Assembly (NCBI GenBank): GCA_019509785.1
Contig: JAEKLQ010000058.1
Coordinates: 1 to 44,524, forward strand
Direction: 5' to 3'
From: Fibrobacterota bacterium
GTDB lineage: Bacteria > Fibrobacterota > Fibrobacteria > UBA11236
DNA: 44,524 nt
The position numbers and the translations under genes were made by a program. Numbering within the stretch: the stretch's first letter is position 1; each line of letters begins with the position of its first letter. Shown here in pieces: positions 5,093 through 10,710 of this stretch. The notes beneath the pieces are model-generated. The model searched no databases. It saw only the letters and a program-made list of their open reading frames with translations, and was not told the origin of the DNA.

Positions 5093-6522
5093 GGGACCTC
5101 CTCAGTAATCAAAGCTTTGCCTAGGGCGAGCCGCAAGGCGGCCTGGGAACGGATGCGGGCATGGTTGGCGCCCAAGTAACCGAAGGACGCGTCGCGAAAG
5201 GCTTGCTCCGCTTCCAGTAAATCGGTGAGCTGGCCTTTACCGGCCCGGAAATCCTCGCTGAGCATTTCCTGCGCAGCCTGGGCGGCTTGTACGGCCTGCT
5301 GGGCGGCCGCCAGCGACGTATCCGAAGTCTGGTAATCGCGCCAGGCGTTCTCGATCTCGATACGCATCATCTTGCGGGCCTGGCGGGCCGAGAGCCCGAG
5401 GGAACGGGCGTCCGACTGTAACTGATGCGCTTGGGACATGAGTCCCATGCCGTCGAAGATGGGCCAATTGAGGCCGATGCCAACCTGCCATTCGCGGTTT
5501 TGCTCCAGCTCCCCCAATTGATTGAGCTTGTAGGCCAGCACGCCGACCTTGCCCGTCGCCCCGAGGGAAGGCAGGTATTGCATCTTCAGGTATTTGGCCT
5601 GGCCTTCCAGCGATTGCTGGCTCAATTCCATGGCCCGCACGTCCGGACGCTCGCTAATGATTTGATCCAGCGACTGGCTGTCCGGCAAGGCGCTCACGGG
5701 CTCGACGGCGATATGCGCCGAAGTATCCAGGTCGGTTTGCGCGTTCAGGGCCCGGCCCAGTACGCGGTTGAGCGCCATCAGGGAAGCGGCCGCATCGCGC
5801 TCGGCCTGGAGGCGCTGGGGTTCCAGCGACTTTTGATAAGTGACCGCGCGCAAGACGTCCGAGCGGCGGAAGGCGGCGCCCATTTTGAAGTTCGTCTGGA
5901 GGAAGTTCACCGTTTCCGTGGCCCGCTTGGTGGAGGCCTCGAAAGTGCCGAGGCGGGCCTTGGCGGTCACCGCGCCGTAATACGCGTCCAGCACTTGCAA
6001 TTGCAATTGCTGGAGGGAACGCCGTTGGTCGCTTTCGTTGGCGCGCTCTTGGATGCCGGCGGTGTGGATGGCTTGCGACAAGCGGCCGAAGGAGAAAAGC
6101 GATTGGTCAGCCTGGACCCCATAGCTCATGCGGGTCTGGGCGATGTTGATGACGCTCGATCCGCCTCCCTGCGGGGTATTGTCGACGGGTACTTCGCCGT
6201 TCACCACCTTCAGGCTACCGTCCGGATTCTTCTGGTAGACGGGAGCCGGTTTGAATCCCAAGGAACTCGGGTCGAAGGGCGAAGCCCCGCGGCCCACGTC
6301 CGCGTAGGCGGAGATGCGCGGGAAGCCGCTGGACCAGGCTTGCTGCTCGAGCGCTTTGAAGCGTACCGTTTTCTCCTTGAGGATCAAGGCCTCTTCGCTA
6401 TGGGCCATGGCCTCGCGGATGGCTTGCTCTAAGGTGAGGGACTCGGCATGCGCGCGCGCCCCGAGCAGGAGCACGGGGAGCGTGGCGGCGAGGAGGCCGA
6501 GTCGAACGGGATTATTTGGCAT
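5089..6522 (-). CDS. TolC-family outer-membrane efflux channel
   Basis: A 477-residue outer-membrane factor with a cleavable signal peptide (hydrophobic stretch followed by ARAHA). The pattern is typical of TolC/OprM: SLTLEQAIREAM at the start of the mature protein, long Ala/Gln-rich amphipathic helices with internal duplication (about residues 150-260 and 370-460), and a late LTDLLEAEQAFRDA helix. It would form the trimeric outer-membrane barrel and periplasmic tunnel for the adjacent RND system. Its start overlaps the tetR stop by 11 bases and its stop overlaps the adaptor start by 4 bases, so the operon is tightly packed. A GGGCGGA sequence precedes the ATG. No defect is seen in this gene. 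Confidence 0.93.
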   Translation of the reverse strand: MPNNPVRLGLLAATLPVLLLGARAHAESLTLEQAIREAMAHSEEALILKEKTVRFKALEQQAWSSGFPRISAYADVGRGASPFDPSSLGFKPAPVYQKNPDGSLKVVNGEVPVDNTPQGGGSSVINIAQTRMSYGVQADQSLFSFGRLSQAIHTAGIQERANESDQRRSLQQLQLQVLDAYYGAVTAKARLGTFEASTKRATETVNFLQTNFKMGAAFRRSDVLRAVTYQKSLEPQRLQAERDAAASLMALNRVLGRALNAQTDLDTSAHIAVEPVSALPDSQSLDQIISERPDVRAMELSQQSLEGQAKYLKMQYLPSLGATGKVGVLAYKLNQLGELEQNREWQVGIGLNWPIFDGMGLMSQAHQLQSDARSLGLSARQARKMMRIEIENAWRDYQTSDTSLAAAQQAVQAAQAAQEMLSEDFRAGKGQLTDLLEAEQAFRDASFGYLGANHARIRSQAALRLALGKALITEEVP

Positions 6523-7144
6523 GGTATTCCGCCCTGGCTTTATCGGTGAGCAAACCCTCGAACAGCGTCTTGCAGATGGCGTCGTACACGGCGGAGGGCT
6601 TGAAGGGAAGCGATGACAACGTTTCCGGATTGAGGATGTCGCGCACGACGGTCGAGTAGATCAGGATGAACAGGCGTTCGTCCACGTCCTTGCGGAACTG
6701 GCCCTTCTGCCGGCCTTCCTTGATGAGGGCGCCGAAATCGTCGGCGATGGTCTTCTGCCGTTGCTCCTCGACGCGCTTCCAGATATCCGGGGCATGGCGG
6801 CGCAGATCATGGACCAACGGCTCGCTCATCTGGTTGAAGAGCGCGTTCAGGTAAGACATGGTGAGCTTCAGCCGTTCCAAAGGGGATAAGTCCTTCCGGC
6901 CGCATATCGCCTTGAGCTCGCCGTTGCATTCTTGGATATGGGCGGAAGTGGTCGCCTCCAGCAAATCCTCTTTGCTGGGAAAGTGCCGGTACAGGGTTTT
7001 CTTGCTCATGCCCAGCGCCTCGGCGGCTTCATCCATGGTCACGCGGCTGAAGCCGTAACGGAAGAACAAGCCGCGCGCCTCCGCGAGGATGCGGTTGCGG
7101 ACCTCGTTCTCGGTGTGCACGCTGGTGTCGGCTGGGGCGGACAT
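6512..7144 (-). CDS. TetR/AcrR-family transcriptional regulator
   Basis: A 210-residue TetR-family protein. Residues about 15-65 form the three-helix DNA-binding domain: FRYGFSRVTMDEAAEALG is followed by the recognition-helix signature MSKKTLYRHFPSKEDLL. The C-terminal part is a variable all-alpha ligand-binding domain. It is the first gene of the efflux operon (tetR-tolC-adaptor-RND) and most likely represses that operon until a pump substrate binds. A 10-bp inverted repeat lies directly upstream, over the predicted -10 region, and is a natural operator. The Shine-Dalgarno before the chosen ATG is weak. The ligand cannot be predicted. Confidence 0.92.
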   Translation of the reverse strand: MSAPADTSVHTENEVRNRILAEARGLFFRYGFSRVTMDEAAEALGMSKKTLYRHFPSKEDLLEATTSAHIQECNGELKAICGRKDLSPLERLKLTMSYLNALFNQMSEPLVHDLRRHAPDIWKRVEEQRQKTIADDFGALIKEGRQKGQFRKDVDERLFILIYSTVVRDILNPETLSSLPFKPSAVYDAICKTLFEGLLTDKARAEYHAK

Positions 7145-7157
7145 AATCAGGAAACCC

Positions 7158-7187
7158 TGGAAACTCCTTAAGTGTCTGGAGTTTCCA
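7158..7187 (-). promoter_or_regulatory. Candidate TetR operator (10-bp inverted repeat)
   Basis: TGGAAACTCC and GGAGTTTCCA form perfect 10-bp arms around a 10-base spacer, 14 bases upstream of the tetR start. On the minus strand this covers the place where the -10 and transcription start would lie, given the TTGACA at 7208-7203. Steric autorepression by the TetR protein is therefore likely. Binding itself is inference. Confidence 0.55.
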
Positions 7188-7208: not shown

Positions 7209-7321
7209 TTTGACAAGGGGGTTTCGCGCACCGGGCCGTTTCCGGGGGCGTTTCCAAATAGGTAGCAAAGCCAGATTTGCTGGTCAGCGGCCCGGCGCTA
7301 ATTAGGGAGCATGGCCCGATT

Positions 7322-7347: not shown

Positions 7348-7413
7348 TAATTTCCCGCCGCTCAATCTCCAGAAGAGGTAATTTCTCCCCCACTCCCCCC
7401 AGAAAGGCAAGCC

Positions 7414-7743
7414 ATGTCCAGCTATTATCTCTCTGAAGATTTGGCCCGATTCGGTGAAATGGCCAAGACCCAGCCGGGACTGTTCGATCTGTTCATGAAA
7501 TGGTACGGGGCCGCGATGGAGCCCGGCGCCTTGGACGGGCGGACCAAAAAGCTGATCGCCCTGGCGGTCGCATTCGCGATCCAAGAGCCCTACTGCATCG
7601 ACTCCTACGCGGGCCAATGCGCCGAAGCGGGCATTTCCCCGGAAGAAATGGCGGAAGCGGTGAACGTGGCGGCTTCCATCCGGGGCGGCGGGACCATCGC
7701 CCATTGGGCGCAGGTGGGAAATACCCTGGCCCGTAAGGGCTGA
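7414..7743 (+). CDS. AhpD/carboxymuconolactone-decarboxylase-like protein with EPYC in place of CPYC
   Basis: A 109-residue CMD-fold protein. The layout YY..DL.RFGE (residues 4-15), GALDGRTKKLIALAVAFA (38-55), then PYCIDSY and the AASIRGG motif (86-92) strongly recalls the peroxidase-like CMD proteins found beside arsenosugar-type radical SAM genes. In those the redox motif is CPYC, or U-PYC in selenoprotein forms. Here the first position is Glu58 (codon GAG), so only Cys61 remains and a CxxC disulfide cannot form; another Cys follows at 69. It starts a tight cluster with an FAD enzyme 6 bases downstream. AAGG lies about 10 bases before the ATG. A role in peroxide or thiol redox chemistry, or as a non-redox scaffold, is inference. 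Confidence 0.85.
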   Translation: MSSYYLSEDLARFGEMAKTQPGLFDLFMKWYGAAMEPGALDGRTKKLIALAVAFAIQEPYCIDSYAGQCAEAGISPEEMAEAVNVAASIRGGGTIAHWAQVGNTLARKG

Positions 7744-7749
7744 GGCCGC

Positions 7750-8982
7750 ATGGGCAAGCGCCTGATCGTGATCGGGGCCGGCCCCATGGGCCTGTACGCC
7801 GCCTTCCTGGCCGCGCGACGAAACCTGGACGTAACCGTTTTGGAACGGGATCGTATCGGCGCCTCCCTGCTGGGCTGGGGCCCTACGCGCTTGTTCTCGC
7901 CCTTATCCATGAATGCGCCCGCGGCCGTGCTGCAGGCCTTGCCGGGACTGCCGGCCGGGGACGCCCTCTTGACCGGGCCCGAAATGGTCGAACGCGTGCT
8001 CCTTCCCTTGTCCCGCCATCCGCTCCTATACGATCGCGTGAAGACGGGCCGGCGCGTGCTGGCGATTGGCCGCGCGGGGATGCGTCGTCTCGACTTCGCC
8101 GGCCATCCCGTGCGTCAGGAAAAACCTTTCCGCTTACTGGTGGAGGACGACGCGGGCGAGCGGATGATGGAAGCGGATTTCGTTTTCGACGCCGGCGGTA
8201 GCACGACTCCTGGCGCGGCCGGAGCGGGGGGAATGCCCGCCGTGGGGGAAAGGGCCGTCGAGGGCCGCATCCTACGGAGCCTGGGATCGCTGGAGGCTTT
8301 TCTCGCGGATGCGCCCCGCGGGAGGCTCCTCCTTATCGGCCATGGGCATTCGGCCGCCCAGGCCATGGTCCTCCTGTCCGCTGCTGTCCATTCCCGGGGT
8401 AACTTGCAAGTGACCTGGGCTTTCCGCTCCCGCCACCGCCGTCCCATACCGGAAGTGGCCGAGGATCCGCTGCCGGCGCGCGCGGCCGTGGCGGCCGCCG
8501 CCAACGATCTGGCCGCCGCGCCGCCGCCGGGCCTGGAAGTGCGCCGCGGGGTTTCCTTGAGCGCCTTGGAACGCATAACCGGTTCGGGTCGATCTGAAGC
8601 TCGATCTAGGGATCGGTCCGGGGAGCGATCCGGAGAAGGATCCGGAAACCGGTCCGGGGAGCGGCTAGAAGCCGCCTTCACCGCCGGCCCCTCTCTCGAA
8701 GTCGATACCGTGGCCGCCTTCACGGGATATCGGCCCGATCTCACCTACTTAAGCGAATTGGCCCTCGACCTTTCCCCCGTTTCCGAAGGCACGCGCCGGC
8801 TGCACGCCGTTCTCGCGGGCGCTTCCGATTGCTTATCGGTGCCCGCGCCGCAGGCGGCGGATCTGGATTCCGGGGAGGCGGGCTTGTTCCTGATCGGGGC
8901 CAAGTCCTACGGCCGGTCCAATGCCTTCCTCCTTCGCGATGGCATCCGCCATGTGGAATCGATCCTTGGCCGCATCGCCTGA
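7750..8982 (+). CDS. FAD-dependent oxidoreductase
   Basis: A 410-residue flavoprotein. It begins with a Rossmann dinucleotide-binding motif (IVIGAGPMGLYAA, residues 6-18, then VTVLERD), which binds FAD. A second glycine-rich segment (LLIGHGHSAAQAM, about 195-207) may bind NAD(P)H, and a late GLFLIGAKSYGRSNAFLLRDG block is the usual third FAD contact. This layout is like pyridine-nucleotide-type flavin monooxygenases and reductases. Residues about 288-305 are a low-complexity xRSG repeat inserted between the NAD- and FAD-binding parts. The gene follows the CMD gene by 6 bases and ends 22 bases before the most likely radical SAM start, so the set is probably one operon. The substrate is unknown. 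Confidence 0.85.
   Translation: MGKRLIVIGAGPMGLYAAFLAARRNLDVTVLERDRIGASLLGWGPTRLFSPLSMNAPAAVLQALPGLPAGDALLTGPEMVERVLLPLSRHPLLYDRVKTGRRVLAIGRAGMRRLDFAGHPVRQEKPFRLLVEDDAGERMMEADFVFDAGGSTTPGAAGAGGMPAVGERAVEGRILRSLGSLEAFLADAPRGRLLLIGHGHSAAQAMVLLSAAVHSRGNLQVTWAFRSRHRRPIPEVAEDPLPARAAVAAAANDLAAAPPPGLEVRRGVSLSALERITGSGRSEARSRDRSGERSGEGSGNRSGERLEAAFTAGPSLEVDTVAAFTGYRPDLTYLSELALDLSPVSEGTRRLHAVLAGASDCLSVPAPQAADLDSGEAGLFLIGAKSYGRSNAFLLRDGIRHVESILGRIA
8611..8664 (+). repeat. 12-bp tandem repeat inside the FAD gene
   Basis: About four and a half copies of a degenerate 12-base unit (type GATCGGTCCGGG / GAGCGATCCGGA) keep the reading frame and encode DRSG-ERSG-EGSG-NRSG-ER. The codons before it are also Ser/Arg-rich. 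This looks like a recent, possibly length-variable linker expansion. Confidence 0.8.
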
Positions 8983-9004
8983 ATCCGCCTACCCTTCGGT
9001 TCCC

Positions 9005-9844
9005 ATGCTCGGCTTGGACACGGTTTGGTTCCAGGTCGCCGGATCGGTTTGCAATCTCGCCTGCACCCACTGCTTCATTTCCTGCTCGCCCCAGAACACC
9101 CGCCACGCGCCTCTCGATCTGGCCGCGGTGGAACGCTATCTCGCCGAGGCGGAGGCTCTAGGGGTGCGGGACTATTATTTCACCGGCGGCGAACCGTTCC
9201 TGAATCCTGAATTGGAAGCCATCCTGGCCGCGGCCTTACGGCGCGGGCCCGCCACGGTCCTGACCAATGGGACCTTGATCAACGCGCGCCGGGCGGCCGC
9301 CCTCAAGGCCTTGTCCGAAGCCTCCCCGTATAGCCTCGACATCCGGCTTTCCCTGGACGGTTTCGATGCGCTCTCCAACGACGCCATACGGGGAGAGGGC
9401 ACTTTCGCCCGCATCCTGGAGGCCTTGCGCCATTTGGCGTCGGCGGGGATCAATCCCGTGATCACCGTGACGGAAGCTTGCGAAGAGGCGGCGACGGCGG
9501 AAGGGCGGGCCCGCCTGCTGGAAGGGTTGCGGGCCCTGGGCCTGGAACGGCCGCGCTTGAAGGTGATGCCCTTGTTACGGCTGGGCGCCGAAACGGAACG
9601 CTCCCGCGCTTACGCCCCCGAGGAAAGCCTGGCCGGGGCCGAGCCCGGCCCGGAGGCCTTGGCGGCCTTGCAATGCTCGTCGGCGCGGATGGTGACGGCG
9701 GAAGGGGTATTCGTTTGCCCCATCCTCATCGACGCGCCGGAGGCGCGCATGGGGGCGACCCTGCGGGAGACCTTGCGGCCTTATCCTTTGCGGCATCGCG
9801 CCTGCCACACGTGCCATGCGAAAGGCCTGTCGTGCGCGACGTGA
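9005..9844 (+). CDS. Radical SAM protein with C-terminal auxiliary Cys cluster
   Basis: A 279-residue radical SAM enzyme from the chosen start. CNLACTHC (Cys16, Cys20, Cys23) is the CxxxCxxC motif that holds the [4Fe-4S] cluster reducing S-adenosylmethionine. YYFTGGEPFLNPE is the SAM-contact GGE motif. A C-terminal set (the Cys in LQCSS, the Cys in VFVCPIL, and CHTCHAKGLSC, residues 267-277) resembles a SPASM/twitch-type auxiliary Fe-S site. In-frame ATGs at 8921, 8939 and 8948 lie inside the FAD gene. I chose 9005 because the conserved domain starts there (LGLDTVWFQVAG), but no good Shine-Dalgarno distinguishes the options. The stop overlaps the next start as GTGA. The substrate is unknown; the neighbours suggest a small modified metabolite or peptide. 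Confidence 0.85.
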   Translation: MLGLDTVWFQVAGSVCNLACTHCFISCSPQNTRHAPLDLAAVERYLAEAEALGVRDYYFTGGEPFLNPELEAILAAALRRGPATVLTNGTLINARRAAALKALSEASPYSLDIRLSLDGFDALSNDAIRGEGTFARILEALRHLASAGINPVITVTEACEEAATAEGRARLLEGLRALGLERPRLKVMPLLRLGAETERSRAYAPEESLAGAEPGPEALAALQCSSARMVTAEGVFVCPILIDAPEARMGATLRETLRPYPLRHRACHTCHAKGLSCAT

Positions 9845-10710
9845 GAGGGGAAACCTCAAGGTTACCTCGGGAAAGCGGAGGGGCGCGCGAGATTTTCCTC
9901 GGCGATTTCCGGCGCGTGGCCCTGTTCGGGGGGATCTATTCCAATTACCTCGCCCTGGATGCCGCCTTGCCCATGGCCGTCGCCCGCGGCGTCGACCGCA
10001 TCGTGGCCTTAGGGGACTTCGGGGCCTTCGGCCCGTTTCCCGATCGCAGCGTGGAGATCCTCCGCTCGGCCGGCATCCCTTGCCTGCAAGGCAATTACGA
10101 AGAGGCCCTCTCCCAAGGGGCCGACGATTGCCGTTGCGGCTACGTCGATCCGCGGGACAATCATTACGCGCGCTTGTCTTTCGAGTACACCGCCGCGAAG
10201 ACCGCTTCCATACACAAAGCCTGGATGGCGGGGCTTCCCGGCCATCTGCGCTTCACCCTAGGGAACGCCCGGGTGCTGTGCTGCCATGGATCGCCGCGGC
10301 GGGTAAACGAATTCCTATGGGCCAGCGCCACGCCGGATGCCTTCCTGCGGCGCATGCTGGACGAATACGAGGCGGATATCCTGGTATGCACGCATACGGG
10401 CCTGCATTGGGCCCGATTCCTGGCGCCCGAGCGGCCGGGAGCGCCGCGGCGCGGTTTGGTGAACGCGGGCGCCTTGGGGAGGCCCGCCAACGACGGCCGC
10501 ACCGAGGTCCGCTTCGCGATCCTGGAGGCCGCCGGTCCGGACGGGCCGCGGGCGGAATTCCTGCCGGTGGCCTATGACGCCGCGCGTTTGGCGCGGGAGA
10601 TGGCTGAAGAAGGCCTGCCCCGCGAGTTCGGCGAGACGCTATTGACCGGCTGGTGGACGACCTGCCTGGAAATCCTGCCTGCGAAGGAGCGGGCGGCGGG
10701 GCGCTTCTAG
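9841..10710 (+). CDS. Calcineurin-like metallophosphoesterase-family protein with degenerate metal motifs
   Basis: The 289 residues begin at a GTG overlapping the radical SAM stop by 4 bases, so the two are translationally coupled. The fold pattern is that of YfcE/diadenosine-type phosphoesterases: FGGIYSN, LGDFGAFGPFPD, QGNYEE, CCHGSPRR and CTHTGLHW occur in order. The usual first motif (DxHxN) has Gly and Tyr in place of the metal-binding Asp and His, and GNH has become GNY. The remaining Asp and His ligands are present. This family may therefore bind one metal or none, or use another ligand set. The CRCGYVDPRDNH segment adds two Cys. The last gene of the CMD-FAD-rSAM unit; the substrate is unknown. 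Confidence 0.8.
   Translation: MRGETSRLPRESGGAREIFLGDFRRVALFGGIYSNYLALDAALPMAVARGVDRIVALGDFGAFGPFPDRSVEILRSAGIPCLQGNYEEALSQGADDCRCGYVDPRDNHYARLSFEYTAAKTASIHKAWMAGLPGHLRFTLGNARVLCCHGSPRRVNEFLWASATPDAFLRRMLDEYEADILVCTHTGLHWARFLAPERPGAPRRGLVNAGALGRPANDGRTEVRFAILEAAGPDGPRAEFLPVAYDAARLAREMAEEGLPREFGETLLTGWWTTCLEILPAKERAAGRF

Follow-up and report, generated by a model that had tools for sequence, protein, structure and literature searches.

A stretch of 44,524 nucleotides from a Fibrobacterota bacterium (contig JAEKLQ010000058.1 of assembly GCA_019509785.1), referred to here as the window, carries a compact cassette of four open reading frames, all on the forward strand, which encode a CMD/AhpD-like protein, a flavin adenine dinucleotide (FAD) oxidoreductase, a radical S-adenosylmethionine (SAM) enzyme and a protein resembling metallophosphoesterases (Table 1). 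The order and packing of these genes, including the GTGA overlap at 9841-9844, are as a preliminary description of this DNA reported them, and Pfam and NCBIfam agree with it on the domains. The gaps of 6 bases (GGCCGC) and 22 bases which it listed between the first three genes are correct for the frames as annotated, but the second is probably not real: because no ribosome-binding site is evident before the radical SAM ATG at 9005, and because same-genus relatives of the enzyme have about 21 extra N-terminal residues and a start that overlaps the FAD stop, the true start probably lies near 8951, within the FAD gene.

Table 1. Genes of the cassette and conserved sequence features of their products (positions in the window; aa, amino acids; A1 and A3, alignments)
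Feature	Position	Strand	Remarks
CMD/AhpD-like protein	7414..7743	+	109 aa; sister form of ArsS-associated CMD (TIGR04169)
FAD/NAD(P)H-type oxidoreductase	7750..8982	+	410 aa; outside curated families
Radical SAM enzyme	9005..9844	+	279 aa as annotated; start probably ~8951
Degenerate calcineurin-like metallophosphoesterase	9841..10710	+	289 aa; GTG start overlaps radical SAM stop (GTGA)
CMD active-site region E58-P-Y-C61	7585..7596	+	first CxxC cysteine replaced by Glu
Radical SAM cluster motif C16-x3-C20-x2-C23	9050..9073	+	invariant in 36-37 aligned homologues
Radical SAM C-terminal cysteines C224, C238, C267, C270, C277	9674..9835	+	invariant in alignment
Phosphoesterase-like motif I, G30-G-[IV]-Y33-[SN]-N35 replacing D-x-H	9928..9945	+	G30, G31, Y33, N35 invariant in A3
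C97-x-C99 in inserted D-C-x-C-G-Y loop	10129..10137	+	invariant in A1/A3, Roseomonas homologue included
C275 in C-terminal GWWTTCLE motif	10663..10665	+	invariant in 31 A3 sequences; absent from distant Roseomonas copy

The conserved core of the cassette is the pair formed by its last two genes. A single GTDB genome scan, with the radical SAM protein as query, found relatives in Acidobacteriota, Elusimicrobia, Eisenbacteria, Myxococcales and Fibrobacteres; further loci from Acidobacteriota were then added. Among the 35 loci of the main clade, the window included, the phosphoesterase-like gene directly follows the radical SAM gene in 34, and the 35th ends at the edge of its contig. The phosphoesterase-like gene is present in 12% of the sampled Myxococcota genomes (35/284), and the radical SAM gene adjoins it in every one of the 19 Myxococcota loci that were read. 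Across Fibrobacterota, Acidobacteriota, Myxococcota, Elusimicrobia and Eisenbacteria the two genes are direct neighbours in every one of the 53 readable loci, and they almost certainly constitute one functional unit.

The cassette as a whole is more than a chance arrangement, because its gene order is kept in other genomes of the same genus (with protein identities of 71-83%, or 58-60% for the FAD protein) and its core pair is kept across phyla. The preliminary description had envisaged a dedicated four-gene pathway and proposed a neighbourhood survey. The four genes do co-occur in same-genus genomes, and genes of the set recur together across phyla, but over that wider range only the radical SAM/phosphoesterase-like pair is constant, and the idea of a strictly conserved foursome was rejected in favour of a core pair with the CMD and FAD genes as a second, movable module. 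When partner genes were counted over 40 loci, five of which belong to distant radical SAM relatives, FAD homologues were found in 20, TIGR04282 glycosyltransferases in 14, ArsM-like methyltransferases in 13 and CMD genes in seven; the pair recurs with these partners in varying sets.

Other genes also stand near the pair in particular lineages. A gene for a FolE-like GTP cyclohydrolase I lies directly before it in three Myxococcota loci (L214, L218 and L221), a large AMP-ligase-type protein is encoded directly upstream in two loci (L137:4653-7460, where carrier and acyltransferase domains are present as well, and L139:4530-7220), and a type III polyketide synthase-like gene occurs less than 9 kb away in four Acidobacteriota loci (L029, L126, L131 and L133). 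A plasmid search returned a single distant relative, from Roseomonas, with a match over most of the query; this locus (L122, on plasmid p546-1 of Roseomonas haemaphysalidis) encodes a TIGR04282 glycosyltransferase, a DUF547 protein, two radical SAM proteins (one of them TrsS/Tes-like), a PhnD-type ABC importer and a half-site phosphoesterase.

The radical SAM protein matches PF04055 at 76.7 bits and contains the motif CNLACTHC, and the closest folds to its AlphaFold2 model (pLDDT 91) are the SPASM/twitch-type enzymes SkfB, BlsE and SuiB, with MoaA matched also; judged by its CxxxCxxC motif and its confidently modelled fold, it belongs to the radical SAM superfamily. Eight cysteines are invariant in the alignment. 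The C-terminal CHTC...C cluster of the preliminary description has to be redrawn: cysteines are indeed found there, but the conserved set is the five listed in Table 1, which have a shortened SPASM/twitch-like spacing and are likely, as a prediction, to bind one or more auxiliary [4Fe-4S] clusters. The earlier statement that the usual ArsS enzyme is missing, and that the enzyme present is of a different type, is upheld. The protein scores 54.9 bits against the ArsS family TIGR04167, for which the cut-off is 300, and no ArsS was found in the whole assembly to which the window belongs or in five same-genus assemblies, so that ArsS was rejected for the window and for its genome alike. The nearest curated family is NF049973 (Rv1681), at 102 bits with a cut-off of 380, and by these scores the enzyme lies outside every curated equivalog. 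For two of the distant relatives (L143 and L122) the Rv1681 and ArsS families were the sole two matched at the threshold used, with ArsS second-best.

The fourth protein falls under both Pfam cut-offs, its match to Metallophos_2 being a weak one (24.6 bits, cut-off 27). The label metallophosphoesterase-like which it had been given is appropriate to its predicted fold: the AlphaFold2 model (pLDDT 89) is calcineurin-like, with a Foldseek probability of 1.00 to 3qfn, 3rqz and 1nnw, and its closest folds are SapH (3qfn/3qfm) and 3rqz, at a TM score of about 0.65 by query length. Profile comparison, too, groups the protein with SapH, 3rqz and 1nnw. The label does not extend to the active site. All 31 phosphoesterase-like family sequences of alignment A3 read G-x-Y in motif I, as against D-x-H in the solved 3rqz (SDVHAN); motifs II to IV are retained as GD, GN (which reads GNY) and H, while motif V reads THxG where GHxH is expected. 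The full dinuclear ligand set (D-x-H, GD, GNH, H, GHxH) is therefore not present. In the ligand assignment that is standard for the superfamily, the lost residues belong to the metal-1 site and the kept residues to metal 2. On this reading of the motifs the protein has lost its metal-1 site and kept metal 2, and is no normal metallophosphoesterase.

The CMD protein (57.6 bits against PF02627) had been placed closest to those associated with arsenosugar genes, and its best CMD match is in fact the arsenosugar-associated family TIGR04169, at 113.1 bits, narrowly under the curated cut-off of 120. Copies of the window type, 72-83% identical, occur in nine other genomes; all ten genomes carry the radical SAM pair, and ArsS was found in none of the ten. 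In two of them (G170 and G178) the CMD gene lies on a different contig from the pair, again adjoining an FAD gene, and the link between CMD and the pair therefore does not rest solely on proximity. The ordinary ArsS-type CMD (43-51% identity) is present in 21 of 297 evenly drawn Acidobacteriota genomes, and all 21 have an ArsS above the cut-off, usually adjacent. The two forms also differ at the active site, which reads QEPYC in 10/10 window-type copies versus QCPYC in 10/10 of the ArsS-associated CMDs compared, so that the window form lacks both of the features of TIGR04169 CMDs, having ExxC for CxxC and no ArsS in its genomes. Within about 6.5 kb around 12 ArsS-type CMD loci, no phosphoesterase-like, FAD or ArsM homologue was found, and a glycosyltransferase was found in two. 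These comparisons support the view that the window CMD and the ArsS-linked form are sisters, and that the former goes with this radical SAM enzyme instead of ArsS. Mutual exclusion of the ArsS-type CMD and the pair within Acidobacteriota is not significant (overlap 0/21, p = 0.24), and one genome (G445) contains both a divergent pair and ArsS.

The FAD protein is classed by Pfam and NCBIfam as an FAD/NAD(P) Rossmann protein and has two Rossmann motifs, GAGPMG and GHGHSA; a solved relative was found only for its FAD-binding stretch. At about 8590-8665 of the window its gene contains a low-complexity Arg/Ser/Gly repeat, RSEARSRDRSGERSGEGSGNRSGE; in the same-genus copy of L034 the expansion is a different one, rich in Gly. 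An FAD homologue divergently oriented from the CMD gene in G178 (L068:7479-7971) matches at both ends only, as if its middle had been deleted.

An involvement of arsenic is suggested by the methyltransferases. Compared with the arsinothricin ArsM family (cut-off 500), the ArsM-like neighbours of the radical SAM gene reach about 340 bits; with the general ArsM family, for which the cut-off is 263, they reach 194-205 bits. They occur near the radical SAM gene in nine main-clade and four distant loci, and all 13 copies retain the cysteine motif SNCVxNL, which in characterised ArsM contains an As(III)-binding cysteine. At least seven changes in the presence of ArsM have to be assumed on the radical SAM tree, which implies that the link was gained or lost repeatedly. 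In the Acidobacteriota sample, with radical SAM genes called at E < 1e-60, this ArsM subtype is found in 17 genomes and the radical SAM enzyme in 19, and eight have both where 1.1 are expected (Fisher p = 1e-6, uncorrected for phylogeny); in three of these eight the two genes are on different contigs. An ArsC-type arsenate reductase gene adjoins one locus (L124), and transport genes are found near several: a MIP channel and a PiT-like transporter in L127, PstS in L126, a 2-aminoethylphosphonate-type ABC importer directly upstream in L123, L124 and L135, and a PhnD-type importer in L122. Elsewhere in the window's genome, contig C31 carries an ars-type set, made up of a MIP channel together with low-molecular-weight-phosphatase/arsC-like, ArsR-like and ordinary ArsM-like genes. 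The ArsM-like gene of one locus (L036:4778-5923, in G179) is interrupted, with a split match and one in-frame TAA, and is either a pseudogene or an assembly error.

Our tentative interpretation, held at a confidence a little short of even, is that the cassette is an alternative organo-metalloid module, most likely an organoarsenical one. By analogy, it would most likely work in the manner of the arsenosugar genes with another radical SAM enzyme, and provide a second route to organic arsenic or a similar element. The linkage, the family relations, the residue losses and gains and the ArsM co-occurrence are read from sequence; the element, the reaction and the role of each protein are what we infer. 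The radical SAM enzyme would cleave SAM and form a carbon-arsenic bond on a trivalent arsenical, or modify that arsenical, with the SAM-derived radical attacking, or being transferred to, a substrate which its half-site partner binds or supplies. This phosphoesterase-like partner, with its metal-2 half and three cysteines, would not work as an ordinary dinuclear phosphatase, and would instead retain the trivalent arsenical or pass it on, or else take the nucleoside-like product as its substrate. The FAD protein might reduce As(V) or oxidize the product, and the one-thiol CMD protein (ExxC) might carry out adduct or redox chemistry, the two together tuning the redox state of the metalloid or of its thiol adduct. 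Where they are present, the ArsM homologue would methylate and the TIGR04282 glycosyltransferase would glycosylate, both as optional tailoring steps. A more specific form of the proposal, in which the enzyme is, next to ArsS and ArsL, a third kind of radical SAM protein forming carbon-arsenic (or carbon-metalloid) bonds and its obligate half-site metallophosphoesterase partner is a trithiolate As(III) handler, is rather unlikely at present.

Several observations weigh against the organoarsenical interpretation. The window cluster has no adjacent ArsM, two same-genus genomes (G157 and G158) carry all four genes with no ArsM match at 1e-12, and none of the 19 Myxococcota pairs has an ArsM, CMD, FAD or glycosyltransferase homologue nearby, for which reason the arsenic genes have to be regarded as accessory and not obligate. 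The importers suit phosphate or phosphonate as well as arsenate, the co-occurrence p value carries no phylogenetic correction, and no arsenic binding is evident from structure or motif in these proteins. TIGR04282, moreover, is a family named from its context. The TIGR04282 gene in the window's genome lies in a conserved, unrelated-looking glycosyltransferase operon with no other link to the cassette. This glycosyltransferase was tried as a fifth member: the same-genus genomes in which it exceeds the cut-off are precisely the four that carry the cassette. It was not counted, because phylogeny explains its distribution equally well. The confidence placed in arsenic is held below even because of the ArsM-free G157 and G158, the Myxococcota pairs without arsenic neighbours and the importers that also fit phosphorus. 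The arsenic link of the preliminary description thus survives in part, through the sister relationship of the CMD and a co-occurring, sometimes unlinked ArsM subtype, but not through any ArsM beside the window cassette or any match in G157 and G158; its alternative of selenium is unsupported here, no neighbour gene pointing to it.

The same neighbourhoods can be read in terms of phosphorus, with the cassette serving the uptake and modification of phosphonate, phosphite or another phosphorus oxyanion, and the arsenic genes riding along by way of shared arsenate transporters. The 2-aminoethylphosphonate-type importers of L123, L124 and L135, the PhnD-type importer of Roseomonas, the PstS family member in L126, the PiT-like transporter in L127 and the phosphoesterase fold itself are all in keeping with this, but it does not account for an ArsM subtype that co-occurs even when unlinked or for the ArsC gene adjoining one locus, no phosphonate enzyme (C-P lyase or phosphoenolpyruvate mutase) was recognised among the neighbours read, and the phosphoesterase-like protein lacks the metal-1 ligands; we consider it unlikely. 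Somewhat less doubtful, though still improbable, is that the two genes together encode a general enzyme, whose metabolite is a nucleotide, a pterin or a lipid-linked compound, and which has been recruited to various operons, the arsenic one among them. The 19 Myxococcota pairs without arsenic genes, three of them directly after FolE, the AMP-ligase-type protein preceding the pair in L137 and L139, and the Ap4A hydrolase SapH as closest phosphoesterase fold speak for such an enzyme. The FolE and ligase links are, however, confined to particular lineages, while those to ArsM, CMD and importers recur in separate branches, and ArsM is a neighbour even of distant radical SAM relatives that lack the partner.

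The resemblance of the radical SAM fold to SkfB, SuiB and other peptide maturases raises the question of whether the enzyme modifies a small precursor in a ribosomally synthesized and post-translationally modified peptide pathway. A precursor gene was sought and rejected: no short open reading frame is conserved in the flanks when these are compared with same-genus and other relatives, the intergenic space is too small, and CMD, ArsM and importers are unfitting partners for such a pathway, which makes this reading very improbable. That unrelated housekeeping redox genes were packed together by chance is scarcely credible; FAD and CMD proteins are indeed of common, generic types, but the adjacency in 53/53 loci already refutes this for the radical SAM pair, the order is conserved in the genus, and CMD and FAD genes stay together even on another contig.

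Among the closest known systems is the arsenosugar set (ArsM, ArsS TIGR04167, CMD TIGR04169 and glycosyltransferase TIGR04282), with which the cassette shares the CMD family and a central radical SAM enzyme, and many relatives of the cassette have in addition an ArsM homologue and a TIGR04282 glycosyltransferase. It differs in that ArsS is replaced by another radical SAM subfamily, in that its CMD has no CxxC, and in its phosphoesterase-like and FAD proteins, which were not found beside the 12 ArsS/CMD loci. The cassette may thus work like the arsenosugar set without being a member of it, because the defining features of ArsS and of the CMD were tested and found lacking. The arsinothricin genes arsQML (PMC8552651) likewise place a radical SAM gene after ArsM, and the ArsM of the relatives is nearest to that ArsM family; ArsL, however, compared here by its description, has 428 amino acids and three conserved cysteines (PMC8552651) as against about 280-300 amino acids and eight here, and no ArsQ was seen here. 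Of the curated radical SAM families, NF049973 (Rv1681, MoeX) came nearest for every member tested, but their scores are 95-108 bits where the cut-off is 380. SapH, an asymmetric Ap4A hydrolase/phosphodiesterase (3qfn, 3qfm), and 3rqz are the closest solved folds of the fourth protein, from which it differs by the change of D and H in motif I to G and Y, by the change of the last H of motif V to G, and by the addition of the CxC loop and the C-terminal cysteine. In literature on arsenosugar, ArsS and ArsM, on Rv1681, on CMD proteins and on radical SAM enzymes with metallophosphoesterases and arsenic, no description of this gene set was found.

Upstream of the cassette, and divergent from it, lie genes for a TetR regulator and a TolC/MFP/RND efflux set, in an order that is the same in same-genus genomes with the cassette. 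A perfect 10-bp inverted repeat at 7158-7187, TGGAAACTCC-N10-GGAGTTTCCA, is located 13 bases before the TetR gene (6512-7144) and probably serves the efflux set as its TetR operator; a similar repeat was found in L072 at 5425-5452. Between the TetR and CMD genes, short blocks at 7258-7277 and 7373-7386 are conserved in same-genus L072 and L070, and could possibly represent a promoter or operator of the cassette.

A 2025 review names only two radical SAM enzymes for the formation of carbon-arsenic bonds, ArsS and ArsL (PMC12159101), of which the former adenosylates arsenic and the latter transfers a 3-amino-3-carboxypropyl group (PMC12159101, PMC8552651). If the organoarsenical interpretation is true, then there would be a further route to the carbon-arsenic bond in Fibrobacterota and Acidobacteriota genomes that have no ArsS, and its partner protein would be well defined and open to testing. 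Should the element not be arsenic, the unvarying combination of a radical SAM enzyme with a half-site phosphoesterase, of which no description was found in the searchable literature, is still a good target in the search for a new reaction.

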